From Akkermansia muciniphila (lineage in GTDB: Bacteria; Verrucomicrobiota; Verrucomicrobiia; Verrucomicrobiales; Akkermansiaceae): DNA of 32,353 bases. Positions within the stretch are counted from its first letter, which is position 1, and each line of letters starts with the position of its first letter. Where the stretch lies: the NCBI GenBank assembly GCA_945901795.1, contig CAMDLP010000035.1, forward strand, positions 1-32,353. Direction: 5' to 3'. Positions 46 to 11,390 of this stretch are shown in pieces. The position numbers were made by a program, and so were the translations under genes. The notes beneath the pieces are model-generated. The model made no database searches. It was not told the DNA's origin and saw only the letters and a list, made by a program, of their open reading frames with translations.

Positions 46-381
46 TCAGACTCGGGCATCAGGCCCGTAGTGAAGTTTGATCCAGATGGCTCTCAGATCG
101 GGAACTCCTTGTTCCTCCAACCAACGGTTGTTGAGCGCGAATCGCACAATTTCATTCTGACTCATCCGCCAGTAGCCTTTGCGGCTCCGCGTCGCCATGT
201 GCACTGTTTCGGGATCTGCTCCCAATGCCAACAGGTGACGGCGGCGCGTGCGCGGCTGCTTCCACTGCTTCCAATAATACAACCTCACCCGCGGCCTGAC
301 CCATACCGACAGCGCCAGCACCTCCTTGTAGGTGGAGCTGAGCTTGTAGTAGTTGAGCCAACCGCGAGTGTATAAATTCAG
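46..381 (-). pseudogene. Group II intron reverse transcriptase/maturase, C-terminal fragment
   Basis: The open frame runs from after an in-frame TGA (382-384) to the TGA at 46-48. It starts in the middle of a conserved segment (YTRGWLNYYKLSS) that leads into the group II intron maturase-specific domain. Visible hallmarks are RLYYWKQWKQPRTRRRHL, SRKGYWRMS and a terminal WLEEQGVPDLRAIW-type segment. A full maturase has about 400-500 residues with an upstream reverse transcriptase domain; only about 110 residues remain, so the gene is 5'-truncated and not functional as RT. Upstream sequence on the minus strand (above 384) shows no RT motifs. The retained 3' RNA hairpin next to it fits a decayed intron. 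Confidence 0.8.
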
Positions 382-429: not shown

Positions 430-539
430 AACCGCGAATGGACGCCAATCGACGCGAATGAAGATGATTTTTGAATGAAACTTCTGATTCTAAGAATTAA
501 GTTCTGAAAATTCGCGTCGATTGGCGTCCATTCGCGGTT
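430..539. repeat. 30-bp perfect inverted repeat with 50-nt loop
   Basis: Arm 430-459 (begins AACCGCGAATGGACGCC) is the exact reverse complement of arm 510-539 (ends GGCGTCCATTCGCGGTT). The 50-nt A/T-rich loop between has no ORF. Each arm is built from repeated GCGAAT/GGACGC-like words. It lies between the intron remnant and the next gene. It could be a small non-autonomous mobile repeat or a bidirectional terminator-like hairpin. A loosely similar word pattern (CACGGATGAACTCGGATGGAC) occurs at 15606-15626. Confidence 0.85.
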
Positions 540-610
540 AAATTCACATCGAGTTATTGTGGCTTCTCCCTAGCTTGATCGGCGTGCGGTTATTACCCGA
601 GTCTGGAAAC

Positions 611-657: not shown

Positions 658-993
658 ATGAGCGAACCACAGGAAATCCCCCCGCCGCTGCCGCTGGCCG
701 TCATTCCGAGAACGCCTCTGTGGATCGCGTTTTCCGTCCCGCCGGTTGCGATTCTCGCTGGCAATCTCATCGCCAGTTTCTATCGGACTCCAAACGACTA
801 CGGCACCTCCTTCCTGTGGGTTCCCATCGTCGTCTTTTTCCTCATCATCGCTTGCCTGCCCTTGTTCCATCGGGCGATCGGAAGTCGTTACCGCGGGCGC
901 TCCCTGGTGTTTCTCGACTGTGGCTATTTCCTCGGCCAGGTCATCGTTTGCCTCTCGCTGTGGGTGGGCTCCTGCATGCTTTTTTTCAGTTGA
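658..993 (+). CDS. Small hypothetical membrane protein, first gene of a radical SAM cassette
   Basis: A 111-residue protein with a proline-rich N-terminus (about residues 1-20) and three hydrophobic stretches, at about 22-40, 52-69 and 90-110, suggesting an inner-membrane protein with three transmembrane helices. No family is recognised and no catalytic motif is evident. The stop codon (991-993) is 3 nt before the ATG of the radical SAM gene, so the two are almost certainly cotranscribed. No clear Shine-Dalgarno site precedes the ATG. A role in anchoring or assisting the next two gene products is inference from context only. Confidence 0.7.
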   Translation: MSEPQEIPPPLPLAVIPRTPLWIAFSVPPVAILAGNLIASFYRTPNDYGTSFLWVPIVVFFLIIACLPLFHRAIGSRYRGRSLVFLDCGYFLGQVIVCLSLWVGSCMLFFS

Positions 994-996
994 CCC

Positions 997-2349
997 ATGC
1001 CATTCCCTATCCTCAAGGAATCCCTGAAACAGACCACCTCGCGCTGCCCGACCTGTCAGGCCGCGGTGCCAGCGGAGGTTTGGAAAACCACGGGCACCCC
1101 GGCGAAGGTCTATCTGACACGGACCTGCGCCGAACACGGCGAGGCCACCGCCTGCATCGCCAGCGACGCGCGGTTCTACTGGCTGGCCAAGGGCGATCCG
1201 TCGAACGCCTGCGGCGCCGGCTGCGCGTGTTCCGCGGACCCGGCCGGAGTGACCGGCACGCTCGGCCGCAATGCCGGGGCGACGGTGCCGGAAGTGGAGG
1301 TGCTTTCCACCTGCCTCGCGCTGATCGAAATCGTCGATTCATGCAATCTCGCCTGTCCGACGTGCTTCGCGGATTCCCCGGTCGGCGCGGCGGGCGACCG
1401 CTTGAAGTCGCACTCGCTGGAATCGCTGCAAAGCCGCATCCGCGGCGTGATCGAGCGCAAGGGCAAGATCGAGCTGCTCCAACTCTCCGGCGGCGAACCT
1501 ACCCTGCATCCACAGTTTTTCGAGCTGGTCGATTGGATCCACGCCGAGCCGGGAATCGACTACTGCCTGGTGAACACCAACGGCGTGCGGATCGCGAAGG
1601 AAGACGGCTTTCTGGCAGAACTCGGCAAACGCGCGCGGCGCGGGAATTTCCAGCTCTACCTGCAATTCGACGGCCCGCAGGAAGCCGGCCAACACGAGCT
1701 GCGCGGCGGCGATTTCCGCGAGATGAAACGGGCCGCGATGGACCGCTGCGAGCGCGAGGAAATCCCGTTCACGCTGGCCATGACGGTGATGCGGGAAAAC
1801 CTGCCACACTTGTGGGACACCATCCTGACCGGCCTCGAATACACCGCCTGCCGCGGCGTCTCCTTCCAGCCGATGTTCCTCACCGGCCGCACGTCTGCTA
1901 CCGGAACCGAGCGACTTAACACCGCCGACATCATCCTCGGCGCGGTCGGGCAGGCCGCCGGCAAGCTCCGCTTCGAGGACTTCACGCCCCTGCCCTGCGG
2001 CGATCCGAACTGCGCGACGATCGGTTATCTGTTACGCACACCGCTCGGCGTGCGCAGCATTTCCGAGTTCATCGACTTCGCCAGCGTGCAAGGCTTCCTG
2101 CGCGACAAGGTCCGCTACGATCTATCCGACCTCATCCAGTGTGGCTGCGAGAACACCGAACTGGGAGAAATCCTGCATCGCTTCGAGATGAAGGAAAAGG
2201 ACGCCTTCCGCTTGTTCATCAAGCCGTTCATGGATGCCTGGACCTGGGACCAGGACCGCATCGACCGCTGCTGCACCCACGTCATCCGTCCGGACGGGAT
2301 GCTGGATTCGTTTTGCAGGTACTATGCGGCGGGAGGTGGGAGATCTTGA
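997..2349 (+). CDS. Radical SAM enzyme of the Tes/MJ0619-like class (possible lipid or pterin modification)
   Basis: 450 residues. The N-terminal zinc-ribbon-like region has C17-x2-C20, C44 and H47 (RTCAEHG), then a cysteine cluster C72/C76/C78. The radical SAM core has CNLACPTC (C116, C120, C123) to bind the [4Fe-4S] cluster and SAM, and SGGEP (164-168). The C-terminal part has C334/C339, C382/C384, RCCTHVIRPDG (C425, C426) and SFC (C440), suggesting auxiliary iron-sulfur clusters. This layout, including the CC-h-pdG-FC ending, is known from the family of archaeal tetraether synthase Tes and methanopterin methyltransferase MJ0619. It overlaps the Lgt-like gene by 4 nt (TTGA). The Lgt-like neighbour makes a membrane-lipid substrate attractive, but that is inference. 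A peptide- or cofactor-modifying role is also possible. Confidence 0.85.
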   Translation: MPFPILKESLKQTTSRCPTCQAAVPAEVWKTTGTPAKVYLTRTCAEHGEATACIASDARFYWLAKGDPSNACGAGCACSADPAGVTGTLGRNAGATVPEVEVLSTCLALIEIVDSCNLACPTCFADSPVGAAGDRLKSHSLESLQSRIRGVIERKGKIELLQLSGGEPTLHPQFFELVDWIHAEPGIDYCLVNTNGVRIAKEDGFLAELGKRARRGNFQLYLQFDGPQEAGQHELRGGDFREMKRAAMDRCEREEIPFTLAMTVMRENLPHLWDTILTGLEYTACRGVSFQPMFLTGRTSATGTERLNTADIILGAVGQAAGKLRFEDFTPLPCGDPNCATIGYLLRTPLGVRSISEFIDFASVQGFLRDKVRYDLSDLIQCGCENTELGEILHRFEMKEKDAFRLFIKPFMDAWTWDQDRIDRCCTHVIRPDGMLDSFCRYYAAGGGRS

Positions 2350-3020
2350 ACACACCCACCGGCTCGCCGATCTACGCAACGATGCTCCTCCTCGGCATCG
2401 CGTGGGGCGCAGTATATTGGTTCCGCGAGTCGAAGAAAGATGGCCGGGTCGCGTTGATTTACGCGGCGGGTCTGGCGGGAGCCTTCGCCGGGGCGAAACT
2501 GGCGTTTTTGTTCGCGGAAGGCTGGCTGCATTTCCACGATCCGAACCGTTGGGTCGTTTGGCTTTCCGGCAAGTCGATCATGGGCGCGCTGCCCGGTGGC
2601 TGGCTCGGCGTGGAGATCGCAAAGAAGACACTCGGCTACCGCGAAAGCACGGGCGACCGGTTCGCGATGCTGCTGCCGGTGCCACTGATTCTCGGGCGGA
2701 TCGGCTGCCTGAGCGCCGGGTGCTGCGGCGGGATAGTGTGCGCGTTCGGGCGCTGGCCGTCGGTGCAGGTGGAAATCGGCTTCCAGGTGGTGGCGATGAT
2801 TGCCCTGTGCCGGATGCGGCGGAAGCATTGGCAACCGGGCCAGCATTTCCACCTCTATCTCATCGGCTACGGCTTGTTCCGCTTCGGGCATGAATTCCTG
2901 CGCGCGACGCCGAAGCCATTCCTCGGCTTGTCAGGCTATCAGCTCCTCGGGCTGCTAACGGCGATCGCTGCCATGCTGGCGTATCGGAAACGACGGATCA
3001 AAGAAGACGGCTCTGATTAG
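2346..3020 (+). CDS. Lgt-like membrane protein (prolipoprotein diacylglyceryl transferase-related)
   Basis: 224 residues if started at the TTG at 2346. A GGAGG at 2332-2336, 9 nt upstream, supports this start; an ATG at 2382 is the alternative. Several transmembrane helices are evident. The motif GRIGCLSAGCCGG matches the place of the Lgt signature GRxGNFxN, keeping the arginine but replacing the asparagine with cysteine. The later YGLFRFGHEFLR matches the YGxxRFxxEFxR segment of Lgt. The protein is therefore an Lgt-superfamily paralogue and probably not the housekeeping Lgt, whose asparagine is conserved. Translational coupling with the radical SAM gene suggests the two act on the same membrane lipid or lipoprotein; this is inference. 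Confidence 0.8.
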   Translation: MNTPTGSPIYATMLLLGIAWGAVYWFRESKKDGRVALIYAAGLAGAFAGAKLAFLFAEGWLHFHDPNRWVVWLSGKSIMGALPGGWLGVEIAKKTLGYRESTGDRFAMLLPVPLILGRIGCLSAGCCGGIVCAFGRWPSVQVEIGFQVVAMIALCRMRRKHWQPGQHFHLYLIGYGLFRFGHEFLRATPKPFLGLSGYQLLGLLTAIAAMLAYRKRRIKEDGSD

Positions 3021-5808: not shown

Positions 5809-6831
5809 ATGGAATTCCCAAACGACTTGAGCACTCAACTTCCCCCCGACGACGTCGCCGCCATCGATGAACTCGGAAAAACCTACCAAGCCTTCCGCGC
5901 CGAACTCGGAAAAGCCATCGTCGGCCAGGAGCTGGTCATCGAACAACTCGCCATCTGCCTGTTCGCCCGCGGCCACGCGCTGCTGATGGGTGTCCCCGGT
6001 CTCGCCAAAACCCTGCTGGTTTCCTCGGTCGCACAGACTTTCGACCTTTCGTTCAACCGCATCCAGTTCACGCCCGACCTGATGCCCGCCGATATCACCG
6101 GCACCGACATCATCCAAGAATCCGGCGTCGGCGGCCGTCGCGAGTTCCAGTTCATCAAGGGCCCGGTCTTCGCCAACATCGTGCTCGCCGACGAAATCAA
6201 CCGCGCCCCGGCGAAAACCCAGTCCGCGATGCTCGAGGCGATGCAGGAAAACAAGGTCACCGTCCTCGGCAACACCTACACGCTGCAGCCGCCGTTTTTC
6301 GTCCTCGCGACCCAGAACCCGATCGAGCAGGAAGGCACCTATCCGCTGCCGGAAGCCCAGCTCGACCGCTTCATGTTCCTCATCGAGGTCGGCTATCCGT
6401 CCGCCGGCGAGGAGAAGGAAATCGCCCGCGCCACTACCGGCAGCGCGCGCCAAGCACTCAGCCACCTGCTGGACGGGGAAAAAGTCATCGCCTACCAGCA
6501 ACTCGTCCGCCGCGTCCCGGTCCCAGAACATTTATATGACTACGCGGTGAAAATCGTCCGCAAAACCCGCCCCGGCGAACCCGAGTCGCCGCAATGGATC
6601 AAGGACACCGTCGGCTGGGGTGCCGGCCCGCGCGCCGTGCAATACCTCATCCTCGGCGCGAAATCCCGCGCCGCCCTCCGCGGTGCCTACATGGCGTCGC
6701 TTGAAGACCTCGAAGCCATTGCCTCGTCGGTCCTCACCCACCGCGTCATCACGAATTTCTCCGCCGAGTCGCAAGGCATGACCTCCAAGAAAATCGTCGA
6801 GCGGCTCATCAGGGAGATGAGAGAAGATTGA
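5809..6831 (+). CDS. MoxR-family AAA+ ATPase
   Basis: 340 residues. Walker A is GVPGLAKT (61-68), Walker B VLADE (125-129) followed by INRAPAKTQSAMLEAM, sensor 1 ATQNP (167-171) and the AQLDRF segment (183-188). The C-terminal lid domain follows. These are hallmarks of MoxR, an AAA+ chaperone that partners with von Willebrand factor A (vWA) proteins in maturation or stress-response complexes at the membrane. It heads a series with DUF58 and two vWA membrane proteins, the classic arrangement. The stop codon overlaps the left arm of an inverted repeat (6831-6860), so the intergenic space to the DUF58 gene has been expanded to 239 bp by an inserted element. Confidence 0.95.
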   Translation: MEFPNDLSTQLPPDDVAAIDELGKTYQAFRAELGKAIVGQELVIEQLAICLFARGHALLMGVPGLAKTLLVSSVAQTFDLSFNRIQFTPDLMPADITGTDIIQESGVGGRREFQFIKGPVFANIVLADEINRAPAKTQSAMLEAMQENKVTVLGNTYTLQPPFFVLATQNPIEQEGTYPLPEAQLDRFMFLIEVGYPSAGEEKEIARATTGSARQALSHLLDGEKVIAYQQLVRRVPVPEHLYDYAVKIVRKTRPGEPESPQWIKDTVGWGAGPRAVQYLILGAKSRAALRGAYMASLEDLEAIASSVLTHRVITNFSAESQGMTSKKIVERLIREMRED

Positions 6832-7070: not shown

Positions 7071-7961
7071 GTGCACGATTTCCTCGACAACACCCTGCTA
7101 TCGCGCCTCGGCTCGTTGCCCATCGAGTCGCGCGCGCCGATGCTCGGAAATGTCGCGGGCAAGCACCGTTCGCCCCACCGCGGTTCGTCCGTCGAATTCG
7201 CCGAATACCGGAAATACGTGCCCGGTGACGACACCCGCCGCCTCGATTGGAAGGCCTTCGCCCGCTCGGACCGATTCTACATCAAGGAATTCGAAGCCGA
7301 CACCAACCTCCGAGCCTACTTCGTGGTCGATGCCTCCGGCTCGATGAATTTCAGCGGCGGCGGCGAGTCGAAAATCCAAGTCGCCCGCCGCATCGCCGCG
7401 TCGCTCGCCTATCTGCTCGTCAACCAAGGCGACGCCGCCGGGCTCTCGATCTGCACCGACAAGCTCCACCTCGAAGTCCCGCCCAGCCGCCGCGCCGCCC
7501 ACCTCGAACGCTTCTTCTCCACCCTCGGAAAAGTCCAGCCATCCGGCGAAACCGGCCTCATCCAGGCCCTCCACACCATCGCCGAGAAAATCGGCCAGCG
7601 CGCTTTCGTCGTCATCCTATCCGACCTTTTCACCGACACCGCGGCCCTCGGCGACGCCCTCCAGCACCTTCGCTACCGCAAGCACGACATCTCCGTCTTC
7701 CACCTGATGGACCCGCTGGAACTCGGCTTCGAGTTCGACCGCCCGCACCGCTTTGTCGATCTCGAAGACGGCACCTCCATCGTTGCCGAGCCCAACCTCA
7801 TCGCCGACGAATACAAGTCCGCCCTCCGCGATTTCCTCACCGCCGTCCGCGCCAAGTGCCACGACGCCTCCGCCGACTATCAGCTCGTCACCACCGACAC
7901 CCCGCTGGAGCCGTTGCTCCGCGAGTTCCTCACCGCGCGGCTTCCTAAATCAAAACACTAA
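7071..7961 (+). CDS. DUF58 domain protein with vWA-like fold
   Basis: 296 residues, starting at GTG 7071. The segment YRKYVPGDDTRRLDW (46-60) followed by FARSDRFYIKEFEAD is the DUF58 signature. VVDASGSM (85-92) provides a MIDAS-like DxSxS metal site. No transmembrane segment is present, so it is cytosolic. DUF58 proteins act with MoxR ATPases; the exact biochemical role is not settled. An ATG-start alternative downstream would remove conserved residues, so the GTG is preferred. The inserted element directly upstream may have altered its translation coupling with MoxR. Confidence 0.92.
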   Translation: MHDFLDNTLLSRLGSLPIESRAPMLGNVAGKHRSPHRGSSVEFAEYRKYVPGDDTRRLDWKAFARSDRFYIKEFEADTNLRAYFVVDASGSMNFSGGGESKIQVARRIAASLAYLLVNQGDAAGLSICTDKLHLEVPPSRRAAHLERFFSTLGKVQPSGETGLIQALHTIAEKIGQRAFVVILSDLFTDTAALGDALQHLRYRKHDISVFHLMDPLELGFEFDRPHRFVDLEDGTSIVAEPNLIADEYKSALRDFLTAVRAKCHDASADYQLVTTDTPLEPLLREFLTARLPKSKH

Positions 7962-8007
7962 CCTTGCCATTTCATCCGTTTCGTCCATTTTAGATCAAAT
8001 TGAAGTC

Positions 8008-8277
8008 ATGAAAACCGTCACCGCCAACACCGCGAAGCAACAGCTCGGCCAAGTCCTCGACAGCGCCCGCACCGGTCCCGTTTCCATCACCAAACACGGT
8101 CGCCCGGCCTTCGTCCTCACCTCCAAAGAGGACTATGATTCCTTGGTGGAGCTGAAATTCGAGCACTTGAAACGCGAAGTTCAGACAGGTTTTGATGCGT
8201 TGGACCGGGGAGAGTTTTCCGATAAAACCTTCGAGCAAATCGCCGCGGAAGTCATGTCGGAATTCAAACAAAGCTGA
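8008..8277 (+). CDS. Phd/YefM-family antitoxin
   Basis: 89 residues starting MKTVTANTAKQQLGQVLDSA, then GPVSITKHGRPAFVLTSKEDYDSL. This is the classic Phd/YefM N-terminal DNA-binding fold (ITKHGRPxxVL). The C-terminal part (residues 50-89) is helical and likely wraps and neutralises the toxin. It lies 4 nt upstream of the ParE-type toxin. Phd-type antitoxins normally repress their own operon. The pair sits between the DUF58 gene and the BatA-like gene and so interrupts that core gene set. Confidence 0.9.
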   Translation: MKTVTANTAKQQLGQVLDSARTGPVSITKHGRPAFVLTSKEDYDSLVELKFEHLKREVQTGFDALDRGEFSDKTFEQIAAEVMSEFKQS

Positions 8278-8281
8278 TTCC

Positions 8282-8596
8282 GTGGGCAGCTACCGGCTAT
8301 CGAAATTCGCAGAGCGGGACCTTGCTGAAACCCTTCGCTACACCATCAAAACTTGGGGAATGAAACAAGGAACCGCTTACTTTCAACTCCTTAGGGTCGC
8401 AAGAACCCGCATCGTGAACGACCCATTCCTCCCCGGCAGCAAAACCAGAGACGATCTAGCCAATGGGTGCCGTGCCTTCCGGGTCGCCAAGCACTTGATC
8501 TTTTATCGAGTGAGGGGGGACAGCGTTGAAATCGCCCGCATCCTTCACGAGTGCATGGACTTTTCCCGACACGTCGGCGAGGAAACCTTCCCGTAA
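8282..8596 (+). CDS. ParE/RelE-superfamily toxin
   Basis: 104 residues from the GTG at 8282, 4 nt after the antitoxin stop. RLSKFAERDLAETLRYTIKTWG is the ParE N-terminal helix pair, and the end has KHLIFYRV, IARILHECMDF and a final RH. ParE toxins poison gyrase; RelE relatives cleave ribosomal mRNA; sequence alone does not separate these here, but the TWG...DLANGCRAF...RILH-x2-MDF pattern is ParE-like. It is clearly related to the toxin at 20940-21248 although its antitoxin is of a different family. Confidence 0.88.
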   Translation: MGSYRLSKFAERDLAETLRYTIKTWGMKQGTAYFQLLRVARTRIVNDPFLPGSKTRDDLANGCRAFRVAKHLIFYRVRGDSVEIARILHECMDFSRHVGEETFP

Positions 8597-8641
8597 CCAC
8601 CATTTCTATGCCAATCCACCTAGCATCCTCTTCGCGGCACT

Positions 8642-8670
8642 TTGCGACCTCAGCGTCTTTGCGGTAAATC
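8642..8670 (+). promoter_or_regulatory. Possible promoter for the BatA-like gene
   Basis: TTGCGA (8642-8647) and TAAATC (8665-8670) are spaced by 17 bp; the ATG at 8680 is 9 nt after the -10. This gives the downstream genes a possible new promoter after the toxin-antitoxin insertion. The underlying TTTGCG...TTTGCGGTAAAT wording looks like part of a dispersed repeat. Confidence 0.4.
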
Positions 8671-8679
8671 CAATAACCC

Positions 8680-10659
8680 ATGCTTTTTCTCAATCCATTC
8701 CTGCTCTGGGGCCTGCTCGCCGCCGCCGTCCCCATCGCGATCCACCTTCTGAATCGTCGCCGCCACAAAACCATCCAGTGGGCGGCCATGCAGTTCCTGC
8801 TCAAGGCCACCCGCGAGTCCCGCGGGAAGAAGAAACTCCGCCACATCCTCATTCTAACGTGTCGCGCGCTCGCCGTCGCCGCGCTCGCCTTCGCCGCCGC
8901 GCGGCCCGTCGTTTCCGGCCTCATCGGCTGGGGCGGCGGTTCCATCGACACCGTCGTCCTCCTGCTAGACCGCTCCGCATCCATGGAGACCAAGCCCGGC
9001 GACGGCCTCGCCCCGCGCCGCCAGATCGTCATCGAAAAAGTCCGCGACGCCATGAAAACCTTGGGTGCCGCCCGCCTCGTCCTCATCGACAGCGCCAGCG
9101 GAAAACCCCAGGAAATCCCCTCGCCCGACGTCCTGCCCGAAATCGCCGCCACCGCGCCCACCGACAGCGCCGCCGACTTCTCCACCCTGCTCGCCCGCGC
9201 CGCAGAATTTCTAGCTAAAACCACCGGCCGCTCCGAGGTCTGGCTCGCCTCCGACCTCCAAACCTCCAACTGGCACCCCGAGGACGCGCGCTGGGCCGCC
9301 GCCCGTGCCAGCCTCGCAGCCCTGCCTCAAAAGCCCGCCGTCCGCGTCCTCTCCCTCACCGGCCCAGCCGCCCCTAACACCGCCATCCGCATCCTCGGCT
9401 CGCGCCGCTCCGGAGACGAAATGCTCTTCGATCTCGAAATCCTCCGCGCCGCCGATGCCCGCGGCACCACCACCCTCCCGCTCACCACCAATCTCAACGG
9501 CACCCGCACCACCGAGAACCTGACCCTCCCCGGCCAATCCCTCCGTTTTCAAAAGCGCGTCACCCTCCCCAGCGGCAGCGCCACCGGCTCCGGCTGGCTC
9601 TCCATCCCCGCCGATGGAAACTCCCGCGACAACTCCACCTTCTTCGCCTACGGCCCCGCCCGCCCGGTCAAATCCGTCGTCGTCGCCCCCGCCGGAGAAG
9701 CCGCCGACTACCTCGCGCTCGCCGCCGCGCCTCCGGGCTTCGGAAATCAAGCCACCCAGCGCGTCGATCCCGCCACCGCCGCCAGCCTCGCCACCGGAGA
9801 CCTCGCCGCCATCCTTTGGGCAGCCCCCCTTCCCACCGGCCCCGCCCAGGAAACGGTCTCCCGTTTCCTAACATCCGGCGGCCACGTCATCTTTCTCCCG
9901 CCCGCCACCTCCTCGGACGATTCATTTCTCGAACTGAAATGGTCGAACCCCACCGAAGCCCCCGCCGGAAAATTTTTCATCCTCAAGGACTGGAATCACA
10001 GCGACGGCCCGCTCCGCGACGCCAGCGACGGCACTCCCATCCCCGCAGAGCGGCTCAAGGCCATCCGTCGTCAAATCCCGTTAGGCGACGCCACCGCCCT
10101 CGCCCGCTGGGAAGACGGCGAGCCTTTCATCACCCGCCGCATCCTCGAGCAAGGCACCGCATGGTTCGTCGGCTCGCTGCCCGACTACACCTGGTCTAAC
10201 TTGGGCGACGCCGACGTCCTGCTCCCCACCGTCCAGCGAGTCATCGCCGCCGGGGCCGACCGCTTCGACGCCTCCTTCCTCACCACCGTCGGCAGCGACG
10301 CCGCCCAACCGCTCGCCGGCGAAACCCGCACCCGCCTCGACGACTACGGCTCTCAAGACGCCGCCAACGCCGCCTACGAATCCGGCATCTACCGCCTCGG
10401 CGAGCGCCTGCTAGCCGTCAACCGCCCGGCCCAGGAAGACAATCCCGAAATTCTATCCAGAGAACAACTGGACCAAGCCCTCGATGGCACCCGCTACACC
10501 CTACTCGACCAGGCCGGCCAAGCCGACGACCCCTCGCTCTCCCGCGACGTCTGGCGCGCCTTCCTCATCGCCGTGCTTTTCTTCCTCATTTCCGAAGCCA
10601 TCCTCTGCCTGCCCCAAAAGTCTCACCCGCAAGTCCTGCCGAAAAAAGCCACCGCTTAA
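8680..10659 (+). CDS. BatA-domain, vWA-containing membrane protein
   Basis: 659 residues. The N-terminus LFLNPFLLWGLLAAAVPIAIH with IQWAAMQFL is the BatA (aerotolerance) N-terminal domain: a transmembrane helix at about 5-25, a basic loop (KKKLRH), and a second helix around 58-80. A vWA domain follows with DRSASM (about 103-108) as MIDAS-type motif. The long central part is periplasmic and includes a GATase-like region. A C-terminal helix (about 628-648) returns to the membrane. Such proteins work with MoxR and DUF58 in envelope stress or protein maturation. The gene lies in series with them but is separated by a toxin-antitoxin pair. Confidence 0.9.
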   Translation: MLFLNPFLLWGLLAAAVPIAIHLLNRRRHKTIQWAAMQFLLKATRESRGKKKLRHILILTCRALAVAALAFAAARPVVSGLIGWGGGSIDTVVLLLDRSASMETKPGDGLAPRRQIVIEKVRDAMKTLGAARLVLIDSASGKPQEIPSPDVLPEIAATAPTDSAADFSTLLARAAEFLAKTTGRSEVWLASDLQTSNWHPEDARWAAARASLAALPQKPAVRVLSLTGPAAPNTAIRILGSRRSGDEMLFDLEILRAADARGTTTLPLTTNLNGTRTTENLTLPGQSLRFQKRVTLPSGSATGSGWLSIPADGNSRDNSTFFAYGPARPVKSVVVAPAGEAADYLALAAAPPGFGNQATQRVDPATAASLATGDLAAILWAAPLPTGPAQETVSRFLTSGGHVIFLPPATSSDDSFLELKWSNPTEAPAGKFFILKDWNHSDGPLRDASDGTPIPAERLKAIRRQIPLGDATALARWEDGEPFITRRILEQGTAWFVGSLPDYTWSNLGDADVLLPTVQRVIAAGADRFDASFLTTVGSDAAQPLAGETRTRLDDYGSQDAANAAYESGIYRLGERLLAVNRPAQEDNPEILSREQLDQALDGTRYTLLDQAGQADDPSLSRDVWRAFLIAVLFFLISEAILCLPQKSHPQVLPKKATA

Positions 10660-10958: not shown

Positions 10959-11390
10959 ATGCTGAGTTTCGACACCAACATCGCCGTTCACGCCGCCAAC
11001 CTAGGCTCCCCACTCCATGCGCGCGCCCGCGATTTCCTCCAATCTCTTGCAACGCGCCGGGACACCGCCGTTTGCGAACTGGTCTTGGTGGAACTCTATC
11101 TCAAACTGAGAAATGAAAAAATCTTCCCCCGCCCACTCACCGCCTCCCAAGCCGCAGCCATTTGCCAAGCCTATCGAAAGAACCAAGCGTGGACCCTCAT
11201 CGACTGCGCCCCCGTCATGGAAGAAGTCTGGCAACAAGCCGCCAGCGGGAATTTCGCATTTCGCCGCATCATCGATGTGCGCCTTGCACAGACCTTGCAA
11301 CACCACGGCGTAACCGAATTCGCCACCTCCAATGAAAAGGACTTTGCCAACCAAGGATTCCTCAAAGTCTGGAACCCGTTGCTGGCATGA
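10959..11390 (+). CDS. PIN-domain toxin (VapC-like ribonuclease)
   Basis: 143 residues. The acidic PIN residues are visible: D5 (SFDTNIAV), E45 (LVLVELY), D106 (RIIDVRLA) and the terminal TSNEKDF (N125, D128). VapC toxins are Mg-dependent endoribonucleases that cut tRNA or rRNA. It is paired with the ribbon-helix-helix antitoxin upstream. The module sits between the BatA-like gene and the large vWA gene, the second toxin-antitoxin pair interrupting this series. Confidence 0.92.
   Translation: MLSFDTNIAVHAANLGSPLHARARDFLQSLATRRDTAVCELVLVELYLKLRNEKIFPRPLTASQAAAICQAYRKNQAWTLIDCAPVMEEVWQQAASGNFAFRRIIDVRLAQTLQHHGVTEFATSNEKDFANQGFLKVWNPLLA

Follow-up and report, generated by a model that had tools for sequence, protein, structure and literature searches.

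In the 32,353-nt contig CAMDLP010000035.1 of the Akkermansia muciniphila assembly GCA_945901795.1 (the window), a gene for a small membrane protein (the microprotein), a radical SAM enzyme gene related to the archaeal tetraether synthase Tes and a gene for an Lgt-like membrane protein form a cassette that suggests a new way to make a lipid-tagged membrane protein. The three open reading frames (ORFs) are co-directional, with 3 nt between the microprotein and enzyme ORFs and a 4-nt overlap between the enzyme and Lgt-like frames, which confirmed the coordinates of the coupled cassette described in an initial annotation of the window. According to our preferred reading, to which we assign a probability of roughly 0.4, a dedicated Lgt paralog lipidates a cysteine of the microprotein and the Tes-like enzyme modifies the lipid tails, the three components making up a lipid-on-protein system. 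Its direct basis is gene order, co-inheritance, predicted folds, an invariant cysteine and a topology deduced from charge. The linkage of the enzyme and Lgt-like genes is real and old, and no description of this pairing was found in the open-access literature searched, a scope outside which most subscription papers fall.

Linkage of the enzyme and Lgt-like genes

The genome from which the window derives contains a single close copy of the enzyme and one weak match (5e-5), the orthologs of the enzyme are 56-96% identical, and most of them have the same partner genes, so that the cassette is not a chance arrangement. Genome contigs were scanned for enzyme relatives, of which 189 emerged and the best 80 were retained (L numbers below); the record titles name Verrucomicrobiota groups, one being just 'bacterium', and several read Akkermansia muciniphila, which we take as loose labels of metagenome-assembled genomes. 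Named isolates among the loci are Haloferula luteola, Luteolibacter marinus, Roseibacillus persicicus and Chthoniobacter flavus. The Lgt-like gene was present in the fetched stretch of 71 of the 80 loci, 70 times downstream on the same strand and once (L081) on the other strand. Nine loci had no Lgt-like gene in the stretch, several of them through a contig end; a search of the whole genomes of eight of these, L061 being the ninth, located a close Lgt-like gene on another contig for L058, L062, L078, L092, L131 and L132 (E-value 2e-91 or better), a distant match only for L089 (6e-18), and for L118 a fragment at the contig end (1e-12) together with a distant match (4e-19). Besides the enzyme gene, the Lgt-like gene (with its antisense frame) and small transmembrane (TM) proteins, no ORF cluster recurred in more than 6 of 81 loci, as judged from crude gene calls.

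Co-inheritance was also evident at the level of genomes (G numbers). Among 99 genomes, mostly of the same genus and order and including that of the window, 26 matched the enzyme at 1e-20, 22 of them with a close enzyme and 4 with nothing but a tandem pair of less closely related enzymes. The Lgt-like gene was found in 20 of the 21 other close-enzyme genomes (as fragments in G011 and G034), the genome search giving no Lgt-like match in G023, and in none of the four tandem-only genomes. In a set of 387 Verrucomicrobiota genomes, the seven with a close enzyme (E < 1e-220) were the same seven that had a close Lgt-like protein (E < 1e-86), the next-best Lgt-like match being 4.6e-37; in two of these the genes are unlinked, on different contigs in G367 and 333 kb apart on one contig in G409. 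Any enzyme match at 1e-20 was obtained in 17 of the 387 genomes, 12 of which have the paired Lgt-like gene, including five further, older pairs with adjacent genes (G148, G256, G399, G446 and G188); in G434, G121, G195, G369 and G422 no Lgt-like gene was found beside the enzyme. The tandem Tes-like enzymes (G005, G054, G055 and G057) were rejected as cassette members, as they fall on a separate branch and their genomes gave no Lgt-like match at 1e-10. Tandem enzymes were also seen in L053 (6086-8934), L054, L055 and L192, and those of L053, L054 and L192 have ORFs in their vicinity that resemble, by eye, ketoacyl synthase, short-chain dehydrogenase/reductase or hotdog genes; they possibly belong to another lipid system.

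The pairing extends beyond the phylum. In a plasmid collection, 10 records matched the enzyme, of which six were opened (H1-H5 and H8) and four haloarchaeal records left out. The Lgt-like gene lies beside the enzyme gene in four of the six, from Mycobacterium branderi, M. avium (pS2b), Nonomuraea gerenzanensis (a record of 11.85 Mb and therefore hardly a plasmid) and Persicobacter psychrovividus, so that the pair spans records of Verrucomicrobiota, Actinomycetota and Bacteroidota. No Lgt was annotated within 6 kb of the enzyme in Mycolicibacterium vanbaalenii and Halorarius halobius, where a methyltransferase gene adjoins the enzyme gene. Membrane methyltransferase genes of the ICMT/PEMT type also occur in older cassettes: between the enzyme and Lgt-like genes in L187 (8090-8746) and L189 (8853-9455), both identified by profile, and in L188 (8644-9399), identified by eye, and after the Lgt-like gene in L191 (7022-8011, by profile).

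In a tree of 22 enzymes, the 15 paired members lay on one side of a branch (support 86/87; 90% of 200 bootstrap trees; none of 500 shuffles), with Tes, the haloarchaeal, M. vanbaalenii and tandem enzymes (rows from L052, L053 and L055) on the opposite side; support is moderate, and long branches lead to L191, Tes and the haloarchaeal row. A tree of 30 Lgt proteins likewise placed 14 paired members on one side of a branch (99/96), L191 again being a long branch. Among the results that would speak against its lipid hypothesis, the initial annotation had named a lack of conserved linkage with the Lgt-like gene and a phylogeny placing the enzyme among peptide-modifying or pterin-only enzymes. The former did not arise, the linkage being conserved; as to the latter, the paired enzymes have their own branch beside Tes in a tree from which peptide maturases were left out.

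The radical SAM enzyme and the Lgt-like protein

The enzyme is a radical SAM protein with an N-terminal zinc ribbon (PF23545, by Pfam profile). Among proteins of solved structure, GDGT-MAS came out as the best relative (E 3.4e-30), and the enzyme shares its fold and domain set: the predicted model of the enzyme (predicted local distance difference test, pLDDT, 83.9) matched PDB 7TOM with a Z-score of 37.6 and a root-mean-square deviation (rmsd) of 2.8 over 391 aligned residues, and the best other structural match, a peptide maturase, reached 18.3. According to passages of PMC9433317, GDGT-MAS (PDB 7TOL and 7TOM) is MJ0619; it contains a site of the rubredoxin type (C9/C12/C33/H36), a cluster bound by C73/C77/C80 and a His, the cluster typical of radical SAM enzymes and a C-terminal one in which Met439 is labile, complete conservation of Met439 and Tyr459 is stated for 1000 archaeal homologs, and its substrate is phospholipid tails, a crystal density having been interpreted as bacterial phosphatidic acid. 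MJ0619 is thus tetraether synthase itself and not, as the initial annotation had it, a second relative beside Tes.

With Tes the enzyme has in common a rubredoxin-like site (C17/C20/C44/H47), the CX3CX2C motif (C116/C120/C123) and, in the window clade, cysteines C425/C426/C440, which align with Tes C455/C456/C470, residues that we take to be C-terminal cluster ligands, in an alignment that reproduces the published Tes numbering. Across 16 aligned sequences, the window included, C17, C20, C44, C72, C78, C382, C384, C425, C426 and C440 are invariant, and so are C116/C120/C123 and C334/C339. The cysteines pointed out earlier were at their positions and, except for C76, invariant, C116/C120/C123 and C334/C339 having gone unlisted; equating C72/C76/C78 with the N-terminal cluster motif of Tes did not hold, given C73/C77/C80 plus His in Tes (same passages of PMC9433317) and the absence of CPxxCGxCxxH from the window clade. 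Unlike Tes, the enzyme carries K409 in place of Met439 and V429 in place of Tyr459, it has C334/C339/C382/C384, for which the Tes stretches compared contain no counterpart, and it differs in its separate branch and partner genes. It also scored below the cut-off of the curated Tes model (NF045702; 155.1 against 450 bits). Because the curated cut-offs were missed, both Tes residues are replaced and CPxxCGxCxxH is absent, the enzyme is not classified as Tes. Its scaffold is Tes-like, yet it is not Tes itself, and of the family assignment proposed at the outset the fold stands and membership of Tes is not supported.

The best-scoring named model was in fact that of the TrsS radical SAM (seleno)protein (NF045646; 205 bits), the cut-off of which (490) was reached neither by the enzyme nor by 10 relatives (at most 352.5). 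This score, which exceeds that of the Tes model (205 versus 155 bits), together with a zinc ribbon named after HMPTM, an abbreviation that presumably denotes a pterin methyltransferase, would fit an enzyme acting on a soluble metabolite or cofactor (for instance by pterin-type methylation), with the linkage reflecting membrane delivery of that compound; such a role is very improbable for an enzyme that in three phyla is paired with a membrane protein of the Lgt fold and with a TM microprotein. Selenocysteine in the enzyme was rejected, as the stop codons flagged in frame in G367 and G409 are natural ends. The enzyme gene of L079 (Roseibacillus ishigakijimensis) contains one true in-frame TAA near 6114, directly before the CGC motif.

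The Lgt-like protein matched PF01790 (LGT) with 64.5 bits (cut-off 24.9), and its predicted model (pLDDT 95.2) matched E. coli Lgt (PDB 5AZB) with a Z-score of 13.0 and an rmsd of 4.9 over 211 residues, the next match having a Z-score of 6.0, so that the Lgt fold recognised in the initial annotation was borne out. It missed the NCBIfam cut-offs for lgt (NF000778, 48.2 versus 334; TIGR00544, 33.2 versus 118.9). The window genome encodes two PF01790 proteins, that of the cassette (E 1e-17) and another, with a much better score (E 1e-62), at a different place; exactly two per genome were likewise found in the 8 other cassette genomes tested. The Lgt-like proteins form a distinct clade and are accompanied by a housekeeping Lgt in all 9 genomes.

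Residues R118/Y175/R179/E183 of the Lgt-like protein correspond to R143/Y235/R239/E243 of E. coli Lgt. Among 62 close paired Lgt-like proteins, the equivalents of R143 and Y235 were present in all, and those of R239 and E243 in 61, the remaining row being a gap; in 14 paired rows from three phyla, the R143 site showed a single K (L191). Position 76 is Lys in 62/62 close paired proteins and K or R in 14/14 of the rows from three phyla, compared with L, L and M in three housekeeping Lgts. In passages of PMC4728403, the active site of E. coli Lgt is described as presumably periplasm-facing, R143 and R239 as lining the phosphatidylglycerol site, and the H103GGL motif as the proposed binding site of the acceptor peptide; H103 is essential in E. 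coli Lgt (passages of PMC4728403 and PMC13251419). In the cassette proteins the H103 region reads [KR][ST] followed by a residue other than H, Y, W or F (in the window protein GK[ST] with L/T/M/V/I in the place of H103), and N146 is replaced by Cys. Judged from these residues, the Lgt-like protein retains the donor side of Lgt and alters its acceptor side.

The cysteine in place of the asparagine, which the initial annotation had singled out, turned out not to be diagnostic. Cys occupies the N146 position in 62/62 close paired proteins (the window protein has C121/C126/C127), and it does so in housekeeping Lgts of Verrucomicrobiota too; N146C also occurs in distant Lgts (passages of PMC13251419). 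The Lgt cysteines were accordingly rejected as a diagnostic sign, since 6 of the 8 genomes without a cassette that were tested (drafts, picked as the best Lgt-like matches without the enzyme) have a protein of the GCC/FYGG type as their sole PF01790 member. MSMEG_5408 of M. smegmatis, a second Lgt homolog, carries Y26H and N146C (passages of PMC13251419), the same replacements as three actinobacterial cassette Lgt-like rows, and we would guess that it is part of such a cassette.

The microprotein and its near-terminal cysteine

The microprotein is the least conserved yet most telling part of the cassette. The window protein belongs to no Pfam family and gave one weak NCBIfam row (0.033); searches of 64 members against Pfam and NCBIfam gave weak matches here and there, with at most 2 of the 64 sharing any of them, and no known family fits. 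In the alignment of these members (55 upstream ORFs and nine rows from older Verrucomicrobiota, Actinomycetota and Bacteroidota cassettes; L070 and L084 are probably wrong ORFs retained in the counts), mean column identity is 8% and Cys106 is the sole invariant column. The Cys is followed by a tail of 4-13 residues in 62/64 (the remaining two being the probably wrong ORFs), the sequence of which is not conserved, and is preceded by 18 hydrophobic residues (lowest mean 1.46). The 18 residues before these (-36 to -19 from the Cys) carry net positive charge in 59/64 members and net negative charge in none, and the K/R count of the TM2-TM3 loop exceeds that of the TM1-TM2 loop in 40 of 45 three-TM members and falls below it in one. 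Because of the positive charge before it, the last helix is predicted by the positive-inside rule to run in-to-out with the Cys at its periplasmic end, the placement expected of an Lgt substrate.

An upstream ORF survey covered 76 loci (75 of the 80 and the window) and selected ORFs of 60-220 aa with 2-4 TM helices by simple hydropathy. A qualifying ORF was found in 55 loci, and 53 of these 55 carry [GAST]C at the last helix, compared with 5 of 29 small membrane control ORFs; with the stricter rule of [GAST]C at the end of the last helix the figures were 51/55 and 0/14. Over the C-terminal 75 residues, median pairwise identity is 16%, and the Cys reaches 96% where the next column reaches 73%. 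L085, L099, L108, L112 and L118 have upstream ORFs that end in this way too, which lie outside the size or TM limits and were not counted. Since these control sets were small (29 and 14 ORFs), all open frames of at least 50 residues were scanned for the Cys-tail pattern, which was present in 107 of the 1094 sense frames of the cassettes, 2 of the 1885 frames on their other strand and 11 of the 4389 frames in the flanks. It occurred in 69 of 81 loci, with two to four copies in 29, and L086, L114 and L115 have Cys-ending ORFs that fail the strict pattern. Among the older cassettes, the small proteins of L187, L189 and L190 share the Cys ending.

Lipoboxes have the consensus [LVI][ASTVI][GAS]C. 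The lipobox arrangement of an N-terminal signal peptide with cleavage before the Cys was not found, the Cys of the microprotein being C-terminal; its -3 residue is most often F, and -1 is not always G, A or S. The near-terminal Cys, overlooked in the initial annotation, is the best clue to a possible target of the Lgt-like protein.

Small, fast-evolving and often multi-copy proteins beside a radical SAM gene have the usual look of a precursor and its maturase, so that the microprotein could be akin to the precursor of a ribosomally synthesised and post-translationally modified peptide: the enzyme would modify the peptide (say, the Cys or its vicinity prior to membrane insertion), the Lgt-like protein would lipidate or anchor it, and the short tail would be the product. 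We consider this quite improbable, given that the Cys is predicted to be periplasmic and the enzyme presumably cytosolic, that the tail sequence is unconserved, and that the nearest solved relative of the enzyme is a lipid enzyme with peptide maturases far behind (Z 37.6 versus 18.3). Nor was a fixed protease or exporter seen, since no non-cassette ORF cluster exceeded the 6 of 81 loci obtained with crude gene calls.

Somewhat less doubtful, though still on the unlikely side, is that the cassette makes a free membrane lipid, such as a tail-coupled or mid-chain modified phospholipid, with the Lgt-like protein binding or handing over phosphatidylglycerol and the microprotein serving as an assembly or docking subunit whose Cys stabilises the complex. 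The Tes-like fold (Z 37.6) and the loss of H103 would suit such a role, and bacterial Tes homologs have been proposed to make lipids of the branched glycerol dialkyl glycerol tetraether type (passages of PMC8941075 and PMC11868695). It leaves unexplained, however, a lone invariant Cys at the periplasmic end of an otherwise unconstrained protein and the repeated duplication of the microprotein, and Met439 and Tyr459 of Tes are not retained.

The features of the window are collected in Table 1, which also contains the inverted repeat just 5' of the cassette and the genes further along the contig.

Table 1. Cassette genes, codons of interest and other features of the window
Feature	Position	Strand	Remarks
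Microprotein gene	658..993	+	111 aa, ends ...VWVGSCMLFFS; 3 predicted TM helices, proline-rich N-terminus
Cys106 codon of microprotein	973..975	+	Sole invariant column among the 64 aligned members; followed by 5 residues
Tes-like radical SAM enzyme gene	997..2349	+	450 aa
Lgt-like protein gene	2346..3020	+	TTG start, 224 aa; second PF01790 protein of the genome
Lys76 codon of Lgt-like protein	2571..2573	+	K in 62/62 close paired Lgt-like proteins
ORF	46-321	-	No Pfam match; resembles the C-terminus of a group II intron maturase
Inverted repeat	427-459 and 510-542		33 nt, 97% complementary, arms 50 nt apart
MoxR-type AAA gene	5809-6831		Precedes the DUF58/ParE/BatA region
DUF58/ParE/BatA region	7071-10659		
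ParE-type toxin gene	8192-8596		Between the DUF58 gene and the BatA-type gene
PIN-domain gene	10959-11390		After the DUF58/ParE/BatA region

Proposed mechanism and its implications

In the preferred reading, in which the microprotein is lipidated, the Lgt-like protein would first move a diacylglyceryl group from phosphatidylglycerol onto the single conserved Cys of the microprotein, forming a thioether. This Cys would be placed at the predicted periplasmic end of the C-terminal TM helix, after positive cytoplasmic residues, much as a lipobox Cys follows the helix of a signal peptide. In a second step, the cytosolic Tes-like enzyme would reach the tails from the inner leaflet and alter an unactivated carbon, either of the donor phospholipid or of the diacylglyceryl bound to the microprotein, the change being a coupling, an alkylation or an insertion of sulfur. 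This would yield a short membrane protein, lipidated C-terminally and carrying modified tails. We infer the microprotein to be the acceptor because in the Lgt-like protein the donor side is retained and the acceptor side altered, and because its partner presents one Cys in the geometry required by Lgt, at the opposite end of the protein; the enzyme is provisionally placed on the lipid side because Tes takes phospholipid tails and its crystal density was read as phosphatidic acid (passages of PMC9433317). A more specific version, which would amount to a new class of protein lipidation, appears unlikely: the Lgt paralog would put diacylglycerol on the C-terminal TM Cys, after which the enzyme would act on tails of the donor or on those already attached, and might join the protein-bound chain of the outer leaflet to a chain of the inner leaflet, so pinning the protein covalently through the bilayer.

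Several observations weigh against lipidation of the microprotein followed by tail modification. Where E. coli Lgt has H103, all 62 close paired Lgt-like proteins have L, T, M, V or I and never H, Y, W or F, and the Lgt-like protein may therefore transfer nothing. On the side of the enzyme, Tyr459 of Tes is replaced in 15/15 and Met439 in 14/15 paired enzymes, the Tes N-terminal cluster motif CPxxCGxCxxH is absent in the actinobacterial clade as it is in the window clade, and the older paired enzymes of L188, L189, L190 and Persicobacter have lost two of the three aligned C-terminal cysteines; the chemistry may therefore differ between branches, and the replaced residues and lost cysteines make plain Tes-style tail coupling uncertain. 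As to the microprotein, its topology is derived from charge only, nine of the 64 aligned rows were chosen for showing the Cys ending, and the Cys-tail scan pattern was devised after the microproteins had been seen. If any Cys near the last helix is counted, controls show it fairly often as well (54/55 cassette ORFs versus 15/29 controls, and 53/55 versus 5/14). The strict pattern is missing in 12 of 81 loci, no Cys-tail microprotein was found near either gene in G367 and G409, no Cys-tail ORF was seen in L188, and the small protein of L191 has GxC cysteines at the end of TM1 and not at the C-terminus. Outside the window clade, moreover, the -1 residue is often not that of a lipobox (SAGIC, VGVC, SAGYC).

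The lipid idea put forward in the initial annotation is plausible, and one branch of the wider Tes family comes with a fixed set of partners that points to a substrate. If the reading is true, a C-terminal lipidation route would be added to the N-terminal lipobox route, in a small system that can be tested heterologously and is present in the named isolates too. The annotation 'lgt' can, moreover, conceal a second, different protein.

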